From: Moorena bouillonii PNG
GTDB taxonomy: Bacteria > Cyanobacteriota > Cyanobacteriia > Cyanobacteriales > Coleofasciculaceae
Length of the DNA: 40,537 bases
Reading direction: 5' to 3'
Assembly (NCBI RefSeq): GCF_001942495.1
Contig: NZ_MKZS01000001.1
Span: 2,063,480-2,104,016 of the forward strand
The first letter of the stretch is position 1, and each line of letters begins with the position of its first letter. The notes beneath the pieces are model-generated. The model was not told where the DNA came from, did not search any database, and saw only the letters and a list, made by a program, of their open reading frames with translations. The position numbers and the translations under genes are program-made. Shown here piece after piece: positions 21,701-28,409 of the stretch.

Positions 21701-22909
21701 ATGCCACAGTATCTTTCGCCAGGCGTATATGTTGAATACGTGCCACCCGCTTCCCTACCTGTTGCTGGAGTTGCAACCAGTGTCGCTGGGTTTATTGGTG
21801 TGGTAGCTGATAATGTTACTATGCCACAGCAACCAGGACAGTTTCAAAATGATAGTGATGGTAACCCTGTTTTAGATGATCAGGGTAATCCTGTTCCTGC
21901 CCCGTATGAGCTGACGACCGCAGGTGAACCAACATTAATTACCAGTTGGGAAGAGTTCAAAACTAGGTTTGGTGATTTCCAAGAGGGCAATAAAATCTTA
22001 GCCCATGGGGTGTATGGCTTCTTCTTCAACGGAGGTTCCCGTTGTTATGTACTGCGGGTTGCCGCTGCAACAGACATTGATAACCCGGCTGAAGAGTTAG
22101 AGAAGTTTGAAACAGTTGATGAAATCACCATTGTTGCCGTCCCTGGAGCAATCAGTGATATTCAACACACTGCTATCATTGCTCACTGCGCCAAGATGGG
22201 AGATAGAGTGGCCATCTTAGATGGTGATGCAGATCAAGAACCTAGCAATGTAAGCGGTATCCGTCCTGTTGGTCGTAGTCAGCAAGCCAGCTATGCTGCT
22301 ATCTACTATCCTTGGATTAAAGTCTTTGATCCCGTTAGCAATGCCCCAGATACTATACCTCCTAGTGGTCATCTTGCTGGAATCTATGCTCGTAATGATG
22401 CCACCCGGGGAGTGTTTAAAGCACCTGCTAACGAAGTTATTGTTAATGCCCTCGATGTCAGTCGTCCCATTAGTAAAGCCCAGCAGGATGGTTTAAATCC
22501 GGAAGGGATTAACGTTATCCGTTCTTTCAAAGGCACCATTAAAGTCTGGGGAGCCCGGACTATGGCAGATGATGCTAATGCTGATTTTCGCTACGTCAGT
22601 ACCCGTCGCTATTTCAACTACCTACAAGAATCTATTGATGATGGTACTCAATTTGCTGTCTTTGAACCGAATAATCTAGCCCTGTGGCAACGGATTAAAC
22701 GGACAGTAGGTGACTTCTTGTTAAATGAATGGCGCGATGGAGCTTTGTTTGGGGAAACACCAGAGCAAGCTTTCTTTGTTAAATGTGACGCGGAAACCAA
22801 TCCCAAAGAAGTAAGAGAGTTAGGCCAAGTCGTTGCCCTGATTGGGGTAGCCATTGTCAAGCCTGCGGAATTTGTTATCTTCCGCATCCAGCAAACCGCT
22901 GGTGAGTAA
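21701..22909 (+). CDS. Contractile sheath protein
   Basis: Forms the outer helical sheath whose contraction drives the inner tube. The 402 residues show the tail-sheath start YLSPGVYVEYVPP and the conserved C-terminal part (RRYFNYLQESIDDGTQFAVFEPNN followed by WQRIKRTVGDFL). Only one sheath gene is present, unlike the three of Afp/PVC. An AAGGAG site precedes the ATG. It sits between the cap and tube genes, which is typical for eCIS loci. Confidence 0.96.
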   Translation: MPQYLSPGVYVEYVPPASLPVAGVATSVAGFIGVVADNVTMPQQPGQFQNDSDGNPVLDDQGNPVPAPYELTTAGEPTLITSWEEFKTRFGDFQEGNKILAHGVYGFFFNGGSRCYVLRVAAATDIDNPAEELEKFETVDEITIVAVPGAISDIQHTAIIAHCAKMGDRVAILDGDADQEPSNVSGIRPVGRSQQASYAAIYYPWIKVFDPVSNAPDTIPPSGHLAGIYARNDATRGVFKAPANEVIVNALDVSRPISKAQQDGLNPEGINVIRSFKGTIKVWGARTMADDANADFRYVSTRRYFNYLQESIDDGTQFAVFEPNNLALWQRIKRTVGDFLLNEWRDGALFGETPEQAFFVKCDAETNPKEVRELGQVVALIGVAIVKPAEFVIFRIQQTAGE

Positions 22910-23108: not shown

Positions 23109-23534
23109 ATGGCAAGAGTTGATCCCTATAAGAACTTTCGTTTCCTGATGGAAATTGATGGTATTGTTCAGGCAGGATTTTCTGAATGTAGTGGTTTTGG
23201 TTCTGAAGTAGAAGTCGTTGAATATCGTGAAGGTGGAGACGATGCTACAGTACGTAAGCTGCGAGGGAAAGCCAGTTACCCTGATATTTCCCTGAAATGG
23301 GGAATAACCGATTCCCGTGAACTCTATGACTGGCACTTAGCCGCAGTCAATGGAGAGGTTGAACGCAAAAATGGTTCCATCATTCTGCTTGATGATACCG
23401 GACAGGAGAAAGTACGCTGGAACTTCTTTAACGCCTGGGCTAGTAAGTATGAAGCACCTAGTTTGGATGCCAAAGGAAGTGATGTTGCCATTGATACCCT
23501 TACCGTGAGTTGTGAACGTCTGGAGCGGGTATAA
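23109..23534 (+). CDS. Inner tube protein (T4 gp19-like)
   Basis: Builds the inner tube of hexameric rings expelled on contraction. The 141-residue length and pattern (DPYKNFRFLMEIDG, GFSECSGFGSEVEVVEYREGG, LKWGITDSRELYDW) are those of the phage gp19-like tube family used in eCIS. The ribosome site AAAGGAG is one of the strongest in the window, consistent with a structural protein needed in many copies. The tail-assembly gene follows after 3 bp. Confidence 0.96.
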   Translation: MARVDPYKNFRFLMEIDGIVQAGFSECSGFGSEVEVVEYREGGDDATVRKLRGKASYPDISLKWGITDSRELYDWHLAAVNGEVERKNGSIILLDDTGQEKVRWNFFNAWASKYEAPSLDAKGSDVAIDTLTVSCERLERV

Positions 23535-23537
23535 ATT

Positions 23538-23939
23538 ATGACTAATCTCACCATGATGCCTGAGCAAGCAACAATGCTGCAAACTGAGTATGAGTTTACA
23601 TTACCAGCAGGTTATGTGGACAAACAGGGGAATTTACATCGGGAAGGGACAATGCGATTGGCAACGGCTGCTGATGAAATTGTGCCCCTGAAAGACCCTC
23701 GCGTACAATCTAATCCAGCCTATTTAATTGTCATTCTGCTATCTCGGGTGGTCACCCGCATCGGTTCTGTTGAAATGATTAACCCAAAAGTGATTGAAGG
23801 GTTATTTGCCTCAGACTTGGCTTATTTGCAGGATCTTTACAATCGGATCAATGGCAATGGCATGCGATCGCTTCAGATTATCTGTCCCCACTGTGAAAAA
23901 GATTTTGCCGTGGAACTAGATATGTCGGGGGAATATTAG
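23538..23939 (+). CDS. CIS tail-assembly protein with C-terminal CxxC
   Basis: A 133-residue protein found between tube and DUF6760 genes in eCIS loci, resembling phage tail-assembly proteins. The start is ATG 23,538, three bases after the tube stop. The core (FTLPAGYVD, MRLATAADEIVPLKDPRV, YLIVILLSRVV) is typical, and the end has a single CPHC pair, half of a zinc-ribbon motif. Its last 43 bases overlap the DUF6760-like frame, which lies at -1 relative to it and has no start codon. A G5 run (23,927-23,931) three codons before the stop may allow slippage, making a C-terminally extended form, as with phage lambda G and G-T proteins. This extension is a hypothesis. Confidence 0.85.
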   Translation: MTNLTMMPEQATMLQTEYEFTLPAGYVDKQGNLHREGTMRLATAADEIVPLKDPRVQSNPAYLIVILLSRVVTRIGSVEMINPKVIEGLFASDLAYLQDLYNRINGNGMRSLQIICPHCEKDFAVELDMSGEY

Positions 23940-24124
23940 GCTACCCCCTGGATCAACTCCATCAGGAGGTAGCCTATCTGGCCTACCACTTTCATTGGCA
24001 CTATGAATCCATCATGGCCATGGAACACAGTCAGCGACGACGGTGGGTGGAGGAAATTGCCCAGATTAATCGACGTTTGAATGCCCAAACCGGTCAGATA
24101 GATTTTATAGCAAGGGAAGTATAG
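23930..24124 (+). CDS. DUF6760-like small CIS protein, no normal start codon (-1 frame of previous gene)
   Basis: About 60 residues with the pattern GYPLDQLHQEVAYLAYHFHW, then ERRRW-like EHSQRRRWVEEIAQINRRLN. I recognise this as the DUF6760 family that sits next to the tube genes in eCIS loci. The frame is open from 23,897 (after a TGA) to the TAG at 24,122-24,124, but contains no ATG, GTG or TTG before GYPLD; ATA at 23,933 or a -1 slip at the G5 run are the only obvious ways in. An internal ATG at about 24,000 would remove the conserved first half. The protein is probably made as an extension of the upstream tail-assembly protein, or the gene is damaged, or the G run was misread in sequencing. 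Confidence 0.75.
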   Translation, partial: GILGYPLDQLHQEVAYLAYHFHWHYESIMAMEHSQRRRWVEEIAQINRRLNAQTGQIDFIAREV

Positions 24125-24225
24125 TTTAGGACATAGTATTTTGGTGTGAAGGGAACAGGGAACAGGGAACAGGGAACAGAAATATGTCTTAACCTTTACT
24201 TCGACTGCTATATCTAAAGGCTCAT

Positions 24226-24369: not shown

Positions 24370-24546
24370 ATCTTGCACCAGTACAAACAAACTTAATAAC
24401 GACAGTGATAACAATTAATTTCAGTACTGAAATAGTCAAATTTTATCACTGTTCCCTGTTCCCTGTTCCCTGTTCCCTACCTTGACAGGTAAATTTTCAA
24501 CTTGGTGCAAGACCCCAGTTCAAAAGTTGACTATTGCAACAAAACA

Positions 24547-27500
24547 ATGGAAGATTCTCCTTACAGTTCAACCTTAGGGCAACGTCTACAGCGGCGACTG
24601 GTTAAACCTGCTGGGGTCATTAATACCCAGCAGTTACATTCTCATTACCAAGCTACTCAAAGCACAGCGGGAAGACTTGTACAAAAGTCCATGTTACCGG
24701 AACAAGTAAAATTCCGTTATGGTTCTGGAATTTTGCAGCCTACAGCTATCATGTCACGTCTTCAGCGACAGCGCACAGAATCAGCCGACGGTTTTGATGG
24801 GCAATGGCGAGTCAATCCTGACGGCTATTCAGGAACGGGAAAAACAGCTCAAACCTTTGTGCAGACTCAACCAAGAGCATTTCATAATAGTAGGGACAAT
24901 AGTAGGAAAATTGTAGGGAAAAGTCCGACAGCAATAGGCGTTGCTGATTCTGGGTATGATTCCGCCCCCCTAGCCCCCCAATTCTGGGGGGAACAAAACT
25001 CTGAAAGTCCCCCAAAGTTGGGGGATTTAGGGGGCTTGACCAAAACCAGACGATCGCCCATTCATACTTCAATTCAGCAACGCCCAGCAATATCCCAGAA
25101 AGTAACAGTAATGACCAAGCCATTGGTCAAAGAAACTAACCACAACCAGACTACAAGCCCAGTTTCATTGGTAGAAAAAAAGCCTAAGTCTGCTTCCTCT
25201 AGTCCCCTTGGGAAGACAATTAACAAAACTGGGGAGAAGGGAAGTAGGGGAGGAACACAACCACAGCTTAAGATTAATCGCAAAGCAACGTTGGCAGAAG
25301 TTAATACCTTATCACGTCATGAGTCTCATACTGTACAAGCGCAAAGAGATACTAAATCTAGTACTAAATCTAGTACTAAATCGAGTACTAATCCTACAGT
25401 AACTCAAACTCAACCTGAAACCAGTAGCTCTTCGTCACCTCCCTACCCTGAAAAATCGGGAACGTTGCGGATTAGTCGAAAAGCAACCATGACAGCAGCT
25501 AATGCTAGTCATGTTGCTAGAGTTCAAAGTAAATCTATTCCAGATCTACCTCTTGCTCAAACCAATAGTCCATCATCTTCAAGTACAGTTTCCAGAAAAG
25601 AGGATAACGAGGAGACTGTAATTCAAACCAAAATTTCGCCCTTACAGCCCAAATCAGGTCAGATTACCTCTCCAGGTGATTCTTTTCAAAACTCAGCTCA
25701 AGATTTACCTCTAGCTAAAACTACAAGTGCATCATCCCCAACTACAGTGTCTAGAAAAGAGGATAACGATGATACTGTAATTCAAGCTAAACTCTCGCCA
25801 AGTTCTGGTAAACTAATCTCTGAAAGTCCCACCATAAGTAAAGCTAGTCATTCCCAAACTATAAGTCACAGTAACTCTAGTCCAGATTTACCTCTAGCTA
25901 AAACGGCAAGTACCTCATCCCCAAGTCAAGTATCTAGAAAAGAGGATAGCTCAGATACAGTAATTCAAGCTAAACTCTCGCCAACTTCCGGTAAACTAAT
26001 CTCTCAAAGTCCCACCATAAGTAAAGCTAGTCATTCCCAAACTATAAGTCACAGTAACTCTAGTCCAGATTTACCTCTAGCTAAAACAAATAGTCCATCA
26101 TCCCCAACTACAGTATCTAGAAAAGAGGATAGCTCAGATACAGTAATTCAAGCTAAACTCTCGCCAACTTCCGGTAAACTAATCTCTCAAAGTCCCACCA
26201 TAAGTAAAGCTAGTCATTCCCAAACTATAAGTCACAGTAACTCTAGTCCAGATTTACCTCTAGCTAAAACTACAAGTGCATCATCCCCAAGTCAAGTATC
26301 TAGAAAAGAGGATAACGATGAGACTGTAATTCAAGCTAAACTCTCGCCAACTTCTGGTAAACTAATCTCTCAAACTCCCACCCTAAGTAAAGCTAGTAAT
26401 TCCCAAACTATAAGTCACAGTAACTCTACTCCAGATTTACCTCTGGCTAAAACTACAAGTGCATCATCCCCAAGTCAAGTATCTAGAAAAGAGGATAACG
26501 ATGAGACTGTAATTCAAGCTAAACTCTCGCCAACTTCTGGTAAACTAATCTCTCAAACTCCCACCCTAAGTAAAGCTAGTAATTCCCAAACTATAAGTCA
26601 CAGTAACTCTACTCCAGATTTACCTCTGGCTAAAACTACAAGTGCATCATCCCCAAGTCAAGTATCTAGAAAAGAGGATAACGATGAGACTGTAATTCAA
26701 GCTAAACTCTCGCCAAATTCCGGTAAAATAATCTCTCAAAGTCCCACCATCACTCAAGCTAGTCATTCCCAAACTATAAGTCACAGTAACTCTAGTTCAG
26801 ATTTACCTCTGGCAAAAACGAATAATCCATTATCCCCAAGTCAAGTATCTAGAAAAGAGGATAGCGAGGATACAGTAATTCAAGCTAAACTCTCTCCAAA
26901 TTCTGGTAAACTAATCTCTCAAAGTCCCACCCTAAGTAAAGCTAGTAATTCCCAAACTATAAGTCACAGTAACTCTAGTCTAGATTTACCTCTGGCAAAA
27001 ACTACAAGTGCCTCATCCCCAACTACAGTATCTAGAAAAGAGGATAACGATGAGACAGTAATTCAAGCCAAAATTATCCCGAATCAGCCCAAATCAGGTC
27101 AGATTACCTCTCAAGGTTATACCATAAGTAAAGCTAGTCATTCCCAAACTATAACTCACAGTAAATCTAGTCCAGATTTACCTCTCGCTAAAACAAATAG
27201 TCCATCATACCAAAGCACGATTCAAGCTAAAAATCAACCTTTAAGTAAAGGAATTATCCAAACCAAACTAGCAGAAAAAAACTATCAACCAACTGATATA
27301 ATACAAAAACAGCAGGGAAATTTACCTGTACAACTATCCCAAAAAAACTCAATTGCTAGTAACCCTAGTGTAGTTTCCACAACCCCTACCCAGTTATATT
27401 CCTCATCTGAGTTAAACAGGGTTTGGCTGAAAACTACTAATACCATAGAGGCTAGTAAAGGGTTATCAACCACAAGCTCCAATCATCAGAAACTGCCTCT

Positions 27501-27735
27501 ACCTCTAGCAATCACGCAAATAAAAACAAATGGAGCGATCGCACGTCAAACCAATGCAGTGGAAAACTCTACGGTTCAAGCAAAGTCGGGAAATGCCACA
27601 ACCCCGATGTCTACCCCAGAAACAGCATCAGCATCAGGGATAGATTTAACCAAAGTGGCTGAACAAGTCAGTCGTATTCTGGCTCGTAAACTAATGGTAG
27701 AAAGGGAACGTCGAGGAATCGGAAAATGGCATTAG
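24547..27735 (+). CDS. Giant Ser/Thr-rich repeat protein of the CIS locus
   Basis: A 1,062-residue protein predicted to be mostly disordered. ATG 24,547 is chosen over upstream TTG/GTG codons (24,502/24,505) that lie in an inverted repeat. Residues 1-130 are basic and not recognised. Residues 139-165 are encoded by a GC-rich palindromic element. Repeats of 61 residues (183 bp) fill about 350-880: each begins with RKED, carries VIQAKLSP and ends near DLPLAKT. The last 35 residues (DLTKVAEQVSRILARKLMVERERRG) form a likely helix, which resembles a short C-terminal helix I recall in proteins at this position of other eCIS loci. The gene ends 10 bp inside the next gene. It may be a length-setting, scaffold or cargo-related protein; no enzyme domain is seen. 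Confidence 0.8.
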   Translation: MEDSPYSSTLGQRLQRRLVKPAGVINTQQLHSHYQATQSTAGRLVQKSMLPEQVKFRYGSGILQPTAIMSRLQRQRTESADGFDGQWRVNPDGYSGTGKTAQTFVQTQPRAFHNSRDNSRKIVGKSPTAIGVADSGYDSAPLAPQFWGEQNSESPPKLGDLGGLTKTRRSPIHTSIQQRPAISQKVTVMTKPLVKETNHNQTTSPVSLVEKKPKSASSSPLGKTINKTGEKGSRGGTQPQLKINRKATLAEVNTLSRHESHTVQAQRDTKSSTKSSTKSSTNPTVTQTQPETSSSSSPPYPEKSGTLRISRKATMTAANASHVARVQSKSIPDLPLAQTNSPSSSSTVSRKEDNEETVIQTKISPLQPKSGQITSPGDSFQNSAQDLPLAKTTSASSPTTVSRKEDNDDTVIQAKLSPSSGKLISESPTISKASHSQTISHSNSSPDLPLAKTASTSSPSQVSRKEDSSDTVIQAKLSPTSGKLISQSPTISKASHSQTISHSNSSPDLPLAKTNSPSSPTTVSRKEDSSDTVIQAKLSPTSGKLISQSPTISKASHSQTISHSNSSPDLPLAKTTSASSPSQVSRKEDNDETVIQAKLSPTSGKLISQTPTLSKASNSQTISHSNSTPDLPLAKTTSASSPSQVSRKEDNDETVIQAKLSPTSGKLISQTPTLSKASNSQTISHSNSTPDLPLAKTTSASSPSQVSRKEDNDETVIQAKLSPNSGKIISQSPTITQASHSQTISHSNSSSDLPLAKTNNPLSPSQVSRKEDSEDTVIQAKLSPNSGKLISQSPTLSKASNSQTISHSNSSLDLPLAKTTSASSPTTVSRKEDNDETVIQAKIIPNQPKSGQITSQGYTISKASHSQTITHSKSSPDLPLAKTNSPSYQSTIQAKNQPLSKGIIQTKLAEKNYQPTDIIQKQQGNLPVQLSQKNSIASNPSVVSTTPTQLYSSSELNRVWLKTTNTIEASKGLSTTSSNHQKLPLPLAITQIKTNGAIARQTNAVENSTVQAKSGNATTPMSTPETASASGIDLTKVAEQVSRILARKLMVERERRGIGKWH
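24964..25036 (+). repeat. GC-rich palindromic element inside the repeat-protein gene
   Basis: Seventy-three bases that match the core of the MITE-like element at 24,252-24,322 at most positions, including both paired C/G runs. In the reading frame it encodes a Pro/Gly-rich stretch (PLAPQFWGEQNSESPPKLG) unlike the flanking protein. The frame stays open through it. Confidence 0.85.
25594..27190 (+). repeat. 183-bp coding tandem repeat
   Basis: The codons for RKED start at 25,594, 25,753, 25,936, 26,119, 26,302, 26,485, 26,668, 26,851 and 27,034. All steps but the first (159 bp) are exactly 183 bp, so unit length is 61 codons. Adjacent units are highly alike in DNA, for example the units at 26,302 and 26,485 are almost identical. 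This shows recent expansion or gene conversion; copy number is likely to vary between strains. Confidence 0.95.
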
Positions 27736-28409
27736 TAAAACAAATATTAAGCAAGCTGACGATTACACCTTTAGAAAAAAAGGGGGCTGCAATTTCAGTA
27801 CAATTCAATCCAGAATCTTATTCTATCAGTAAAACAGTCAACTGGGGACCAGTGGACAACTCCACTGGAGAAGAATGCAAAACCCAAAGAAAGGTTAATG
27901 CCCCCACTGTGGACTTTAAAGGAGGAGGTAGTCGTCAGCTAACGTTGGAACTGTTTTTCGATGTCACTGAAAGCCTTATTTTTCAGGATGTGCGACAAGA
28001 AACCAACAAAATTGTGGCTCTAACTCGCATTGAGCGAGATGAACAGCATCCGCCAGTTTGTGAAATTTCTTGGGGTGGCGCTCCTGTTGGTTCCGATTTC
28101 CCTTTTATTGGTGTCATTACCAGTTTGACCCAAAACTTCACCCTCTTTAAAGGCAATGGTCAACCCCTCAGAGCCAATTTAAACCTTACTGTCCTAGAAT
28201 TTCTCGGTCCATTAGCAGACAAACGTCAAACTGATCCTGAACTCACCACTCGTATTATCAAGGGTGGCGATACCTTAAGCGATATATCAGCCCAATTTTA
28301 CCGGAATCCTAAACTTTGGCGCATTATTGCCGAAGCTAATCAACTTGATGATCCACGTAACTTAGAAAAGTACATTGGTCAAACCTTAACTATCCCAAAA
28401 TTAGGTTGA
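27726..28409 (+). CDS. LysM-containing baseplate protein (Afp7/gp53-like)
   Basis: A 227-residue protein whose first 170 residues form the CIS-specific N-terminal domain (VQFNPESYSISKTVNW, TLELFFDVT) and whose end is a LysM-like fold at about 178-226 (IIKGGDTLSDISAQFYRNPKLWRIIAEAN, TLTIP). In eCIS this protein joins tube and baseplate; the LysM fold there is thought to be structural rather than for peptidoglycan binding. The ATG at 27,726 overlaps the end of the repeat-protein gene by 10 bp, so translation is coupled. Confidence 0.93.
   Translation: MALVKQILSKLTITPLEKKGAAISVQFNPESYSISKTVNWGPVDNSTGEECKTQRKVNAPTVDFKGGGSRQLTLELFFDVTESLIFQDVRQETNKIVALTRIERDEQHPPVCEISWGGAPVGSDFPFIGVITSLTQNFTLFKGNGQPLRANLNLTVLEFLGPLADKRQTDPELTTRIIKGGDTLSDISAQFYRNPKLWRIIAEANQLDDPRNLEKYIGQTLTIPKLG

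Follow-up and report, generated by a model that had tools for sequence, protein, structure and literature searches.

A probable programmed −1 ribosomal frameshift linking a tail assembly chaperone to DUF6760 in contractile injection systems

Phage lambda produces gpG and gpGT by a −1 frameshift in its tail assembly genes, and such a frameshift in the chaperone gene is widely conserved in long-tailed phages, T4 excepted (PMC5009743). For archaea, −1 frameshifting is described for viruses and a few genes (PMC8211752). Recoding within a contractile injection machine is also known from tssM of the Citrobacter rodentium T6SS; this case (PMC4256274) resembles the one presented below in the kind of machine, but differs in that the frameshifting is transcriptional, concerns another gene and rescues an interrupted gene. 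Here we describe a locus of Moorena bouillonii PNG at which a gpG-like chaperone gene and a frame encoding a DUF6760 domain overlap in a lambda-like manner.

Layout of the junction and its relation to phage tails

The window, by which we mean the whole stretch of 40,537 nucleotides that was analysed, harbours a cluster of tail genes, and all features given here lie on its forward strand. A tail sheath gene (21701..22909; PF04984, PF17482) is followed by a gene for a gp19-like tail tube protein (23109..23534; PF06841, E = 1.8e-42), which is located directly upstream of the chaperone gene (23538..23939). Further downstream in the same cluster a CIS tube/LysM protein is encoded (27726..28409; PF19266, E = 1.7e-27, and PF01476), and the remaining genes include those of a Pvc16_N protein, hub, spike, gp25, baseplate J, a P2 I-like protein and an S74 fibre-like protein. 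The chaperone and DUF6760 are thus surrounded by the genes of a contractile injection system (CIS). The gpG-like chaperone ORF comprises 133 codons whose 3′ end reads ATG TCG GGG GAA TAT TAG, with the stop codon at 23937-23939, and its product terminates in a CPHC zinc-ribbon-like end. A second open frame (23897-24124) overlaps the end of this ORF and, as the first-pass annotation had claimed and the coordinates of both frames confirm, is positioned exactly at −1 relative to it. The extension provided by this frame, 63 codons running from ATA 23933 to 24121 with the stop codon TAG at 24122-24124 (23933..24124), constitutes the DUF6760 domain (Pfam PF20546; E = 7.1e-15, 55.3 bits at a gathering cut-off of 27). 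The same annotation had correctly noted that ATG, GTG and TTG are absent from this frame ahead of the conserved GYPLDQL motif, that a run of five Gs (23927-23931) lies just ahead of the upstream stop and that an ATA is present at 23933-23935. Evident from the sequence, these Gs belong to a slippery heptamer G_GGG_GAA (23927..23933) at which GGG GAA could slip to GGG GGA. A candidate stimulatory stem-loop (23937..23976) follows after a spacing of 3 nt, its conserved core, formed by GCTACC (23940-23945) and GGTAGC (23968-23973), beginning 6 nt behind the heptamer. On the other side, 11 nt ahead of the heptamer, a Shine-Dalgarno (SD)-like GTGGAA (23910..23915) is found, which in relatives often reads GTGGAG. 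At this site Glu is encoded by GAG in 93 of 117 loci, compared to a share of 783 of 1396 for Glu in the body of the chaperone (p = 4.5e-7), and Val by GTG in 75 of 106, compared to 967 of 2038 (p = 3.3e-6), both p values including lineage bias. We tentatively regard the SD-like GTGGAG, more frequent than the codon usage of the chaperone itself would predict, as a possible second frameshift stimulator.

As judged from its structural model (m999a77d74f34), which resembles the tail assembly chaperones of HK97 and Mu with middling scores, the protein of the zero frame is a tail assembly chaperone. The parallel to lambda gpG/gpGT which had been drawn from the sequence is hereby backed at the level of the predicted fold. 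The genes of Mu FS-gp41 and HK97 gp13 both undergo frameshifting; the sequence identity of the window chaperone to these virus proteins amounts to 18% and 7%, respectively. Among the viral fold matches of the model, Mu FS-gp41 comes after T4-like baseplate hub assembly proteins, and these matches may point to one chaperone superfamily. A comparison of the chaperone profile with PDB sequences yielded four matches (best E 0.48), none of them a tail protein by name, and a search of NCBIfam with four proteins gave no match. With phage P2 gpE/gpE+E′ the CIS locus has in common the contractile tail and a short −1 extension whose profile is remotely similar to that of DUF6760. For the single chosen pair of DUF6760 and P2 gpE′ (PF06528), hhalign in local mode reports a probability of 93.7% (E = 1.9e-7) over 34 columns, compared to 48.1% in global mode. 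We take PF06528 (Phage_P2_GpE) to represent the E′ part made by −1 frameshifting in P2. This family is not among the Pfam matches of the window DUF6760 protein, the profile match of the CIS chaperone half to P2 gpE is not significant (0.3%), and tblastn of DUF6760 against 50,697 phage records gave no match. The P2 GpE loci L275-L279 (five parsed of six fetched) show a −1 relation together with a run of six Ts where the CIS loci have five Gs. As in lambda (PMC5009743), a −1 slip close to the stop codon would lengthen a tail assembly chaperone. In contrast to lambda, however, the locus belongs to a cellular contractile injection system, known here from sequence, rather than to a virus, its main heptamer is G_GGG_GAR, it is followed by a strong hairpin, and the extension is short (63 codons in the window).

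We propose that a programmed −1 ribosomal frameshift yields a gpG/gpGT-type pair of proteins in contractile injection systems, a reading to which, given the sequence comparisons presented below, we assign a probability of roughly 0.93. Ribosomes translating the chaperone gene would meet G_GGG_GAA with tRNA-Gly on GGG and an A site that is either occupied by tRNA-Glu on GAA or empty, the slip codon GGG being situated three codons ahead of the stop codon TAG, and would be stalled there by the stem-loop at 23937-23976. A minority of them would shift back by one base, pair anew with GGG GGA, bypass the stop and read on through DUF6760. Since re-pairing in the A site is imperfect, a change from GAA or GAG to GGA requiring a G-U pair at the middle position, the slip may mainly be one of the P-site tRNA. 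The predicted gpGT-like fusion (23538..24124, deduced from the coordinates) would comprise about 195 amino acids, namely 131 of the zero frame, one junction residue (Glu or Gly) and 63 of the −1 frame. The outcome would be much short chaperone and little chaperone-DUF6760 fusion, as in lambda with gpG and gpGT; it is the slippage itself and its efficiency that we infer. Neither gpG nor gpGT is part of the mature lambda virion. By analogy with lambda (PMC5009743) the fusion may bridge a chaperone-bound ruler or cargo to the tube subunit and start the assembly of the CIS tube.

Conservation of the junction among relatives

PF20546 is present in 90 of 291 genomes of the window's class, where 94 of 96 listed places were fetched, the window's own being L001 and G288:C863 being omitted. 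It occurs in 83 of 150 genomes of the family of L125 (Wenjunlia), which we take to be Streptomycetaceae and whose loci are referred to as the Streptomycetaceae set (70 of 92 places fetched), in 16 of 294 genomes of the phylum to which the ANME-1 archaeon L132 belongs (16 of 16 places), and in 7 of 398 genomes of the phylum of L133 (Nitrosomonas), in three of them above the Pfam cut-off (7 of 7 places). Further loci were taken from plasmids (16 of 35 matches), from IMG/VR (all 12 loci) and from the best 80 of 573 GTDB relatives. Out of a total of 303 loci, 290 contain DUF6760 with at least 45 bits, and keeping one per distinct sequence left 271, which span many bacterial phyla as well as archaea. 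Omitted from the counts are 19 duplicates and the 13 loci below 45 bits, which include L096, L124, L296, L300-L303 and the P2 GpE loci L275-L280. A wider set with later relatives comprises 278 distinct loci; it was assessed with a looser G5 pattern, which L091 passes by chance.

The −1 relation of the upstream ORF is kept in 268 of the 271 distinct loci. The exceptions are L091, at a contig edge, and L201, both without a nearby-ending ORF of 85 codons, and L074, whose ORF has another offset. Likewise, a slippery heptamer in the chaperone frame is present at 268 of 271 junctions. The patterns counted here recur in 9 of 1080 upstream zero-frame windows and, at the junction itself, in 20 of 271 loci in the third frame and 1 of 271 in the DUF6760 frame; the list of patterns was broadened while the loci were read, and these controls were run with the broadened list. 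The frequency at the junction as against the upstream windows argues that the heptamer is not there by chance. Its sequence is G_GGG_GAR in 224 loci, G_GGG_GGN in 30, G_GGA_AAY in eight, G_GGA_AAG/A in three, G_GAA_AAG in two and G_GGG_AAA/G in one. No recognised heptamer was found in L091, L119 and L258. In L119, from an IMG/VR contig, DUF6760 is at −1 and a GTG lies upstream, while L258, of the Streptomycetaceae set, has four Gs at the junction rather than five, either by a draft error or by a real change. Among 130 non-redundant loci selected for carrying the heptamer in its customary position, the five Gs are 99-100% invariant, even though a different base at wobble positions would be tolerated in either frame; without such a selection the figure to go by is the 268 of 271 given above. 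TCG GGG GAA, followed by one codon and TAG, is retained in two genomes of the same genus, whose matched DNA shows 97% and 96% identity, as well as in a third with 79%. The genome of the window carries another CIS locus (L002; G000:C1:5650864-5651055, minus strand), whose DUF6760 is 48% identical to that of the window and which reads TTG GGG GAG TAA in the same −1 layout.

We consider the exchange of heptamers to be the most telling point in favour of a frameshift, as far as sequence comparison can speak to it. G_GGA_AAG, which is phage lambda's own slippery heptamer, takes the place of the usual one in three loci, namely the cyanobacterial L066, the IMG/VR locus L122 and L297. G_GAA_AAG is found in the cyanobacterial L062 and L071, and G_GGG_AAA in the archaeal L295. 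The Haloferax locus L103 and seven similar archaeal loci (L281-L287) contain G_GGA_AAT/C some codons ahead of the stop; L287 combines the −1 relation with G_GGA_AAC, and in L283, L284 and L286 no start codon occurs within 14 codons ahead of the domain. Such a swap of slippery sequences in one and the same frame would not be expected of a binding site, a protein motif or an artefact of the G run.

The downstream hairpin and competing explanations

In the window, nucleotides 23934-23990 fold with −22.6 kcal/mol (z = −3.10), which 2 of 200 shuffles equal. Across 122 non-redundant loci with the five Gs in their usual position, the 48 nt 3′ of the heptamer have a mean minimum free energy of −19.7, compared to −10.9 after synonymous recoding of the DUF6760 frame, which served as null model. 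The mean z is −2.87, with z below −2 in 96 loci and above 0 in four, whereas a control window 60 nt further on gives a mean z of −0.10 and values below −2 in 8 of 122 loci. The hairpin is under selection and much stronger than synonymous coding predicts. Stem pairs were counted by a script and compared with 500 shuffles. When the Streptomycetaceae set is left aside, 102 of the other 104 representatives possess all six core pairs; several of these pairs are invariant and consequently give no covariation signal. Pair 12-47 is formed in 81 of these 104 (shuffled maximum 70), 23-36 in 72 (60) and 9-50 in 70 (69), so that some stem pairs covary, while pairs 10-49, 11-48, 21-38, 22-37 and 24-35 stay within the range of the 500 shuffles. 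Among 18 members of the Streptomycetaceae set, ten form a complete stem in another register (GTACGCG/CGCGTAC), two in the general one and six in neither; in Treponema the stem is GCCGCC/GGCGGC. Of the loci with alternative heptamers, L062, L071, L283, L284, L286 and L295 reach z values of −2.6 or lower, and weaker stems are found in L066 (−1.5) and in L103, L122, L281, L285 and L297 (−1.0 to 0.8). The frameshift reading gains from both observations, a selected hairpin just 3′ of the site and other slippery heptamers where the five Gs are absent, and the comparison thus supports what the first-pass annotation had suggested from one sequence.

The alternatives which that annotation had listed, a non-standard start at ATA, transcript slippage and a one-base error in the G run, are rejected on the same comparison. 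DUF6760 might be a separate small protein made by termination-reinitiation at a non-standard codon, such as ATA 23933 or, in Streptomyces, a GTG overlapping the stop, with GGGGGA as ribosome binding site. We consider this very improbable. Public annotation does call such starts, and GGGGGA could pair weakly with the anti-SD sequence, but in the window it abuts ATA 23933 with zero spacing, and a ribosome binding site leaves the substitutes GGGAAAG, GGAAAAG and GGGAAAY in the same frame unexplained. Nor does an independent start explain the selected hairpin, which would hinder initiation. Moreover, there is no start codon common to the family. The annotated starts in eight relatives are TTG, GTG (three), ATG, ATA, CTG and ATT. 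The comparison with relatives that the first-pass annotation had called for came out in its favour for the heptamer, the −1 relation and the lack of a start: 120 of the 271 loci have no ATG, GTG or TTG in the open frame before the domain, yet 96 possess one within about 10 codons. The latter is mainly the GTG of the Streptomycetaceae set, which in most members overlaps the chaperone stop as GTGA, so that coupled initiation could contribute there.

Slippage of RNA polymerase in the G run, leading to mRNAs with one base more or less from which the fusion is read without any ribosomal slip, appears even less probable. At most loci five or six Gs in a row make up the site, but five are short for transcript slippage, several loci with G_GGA_AAG, G_GGA_AAY or G_GAA_AAG have no long homopolymer at all, and the conserved downstream hairpin is of the type which stimulates translational slippage. 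A one-base assembly error or a decayed pseudogene, as might be thought of for frames differing by a single base, is of negligible probability, since the same-genus genomes keep the same bases, the second locus of the genome and 268 of 271 loci share the layout, and the DUF6760 protein is conserved.

Breadth, significance and the downstream region

Programmed −1 frameshifting in the chaperone gene may be general and ancient in a large cellular branch of contractile injection systems, comprising bacteria and, with ANME-1, Methanoperedens and Haloferax-like loci, archaea. We moderately favour the view that it was inherited from a phage-tail ancestor shared with P2-type tails, was kept through the exchange of heptamers and hairpins and determines in which ratio the two chaperone forms that start and time tube assembly are made. 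If true, archaea, for which few host-encoded −1 frameshifts are known, would gain a further one. A frameshift signature in the injection machines of many phyla implies a second, unannotated assembly protein there, and these machines probably retain a phage-style start of tube assembly; should the ratio of the two chaperone forms matter, it would represent a control point for CIS assembly. Our literature search, which left subscription papers mostly outside its coverage, returned no report of a chaperone frameshift in contractile injection systems, and one elsewhere is possible. Within it DUF6760 was not mentioned, 'contractile injection system' and 'programmed frameshift' never appeared together, and the word 'frameshift' is absent from the main texts of PMC13277306, PMC12237407, PMC10066040, PMC12998442, PMC11566945 and PMC8894136.

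In the annotated relatives examined, DUF6760 either appears as a protein of its own, the start of which varies, or is missing. For L097, L105, L107 and L112 the start codon in public annotation is a TTG lying within the domain or else ATA, CTG or ATT, and the incomplete gene table of PLSDB lists no gene for it in L106. Right downstream of DUF6760 the window contains a repetitive ORF of 1077 aa (24502-27735) with repeats of the form SPDLPLAKTxSxSSPxxVSRKED...TVIQAKLSP. A Pfam search with this ORF gave no match, for which reason it cannot be named a tape measure; in the CIS it may serve as a ruler, a cargo or a filler protein. The gap 3′ of DUF6760 contains short tandem GGGAACA units and their reverse complement (24150-24179 and 24449-24478), which border a repeat of G and C runs and resemble an intergenic repeat element.
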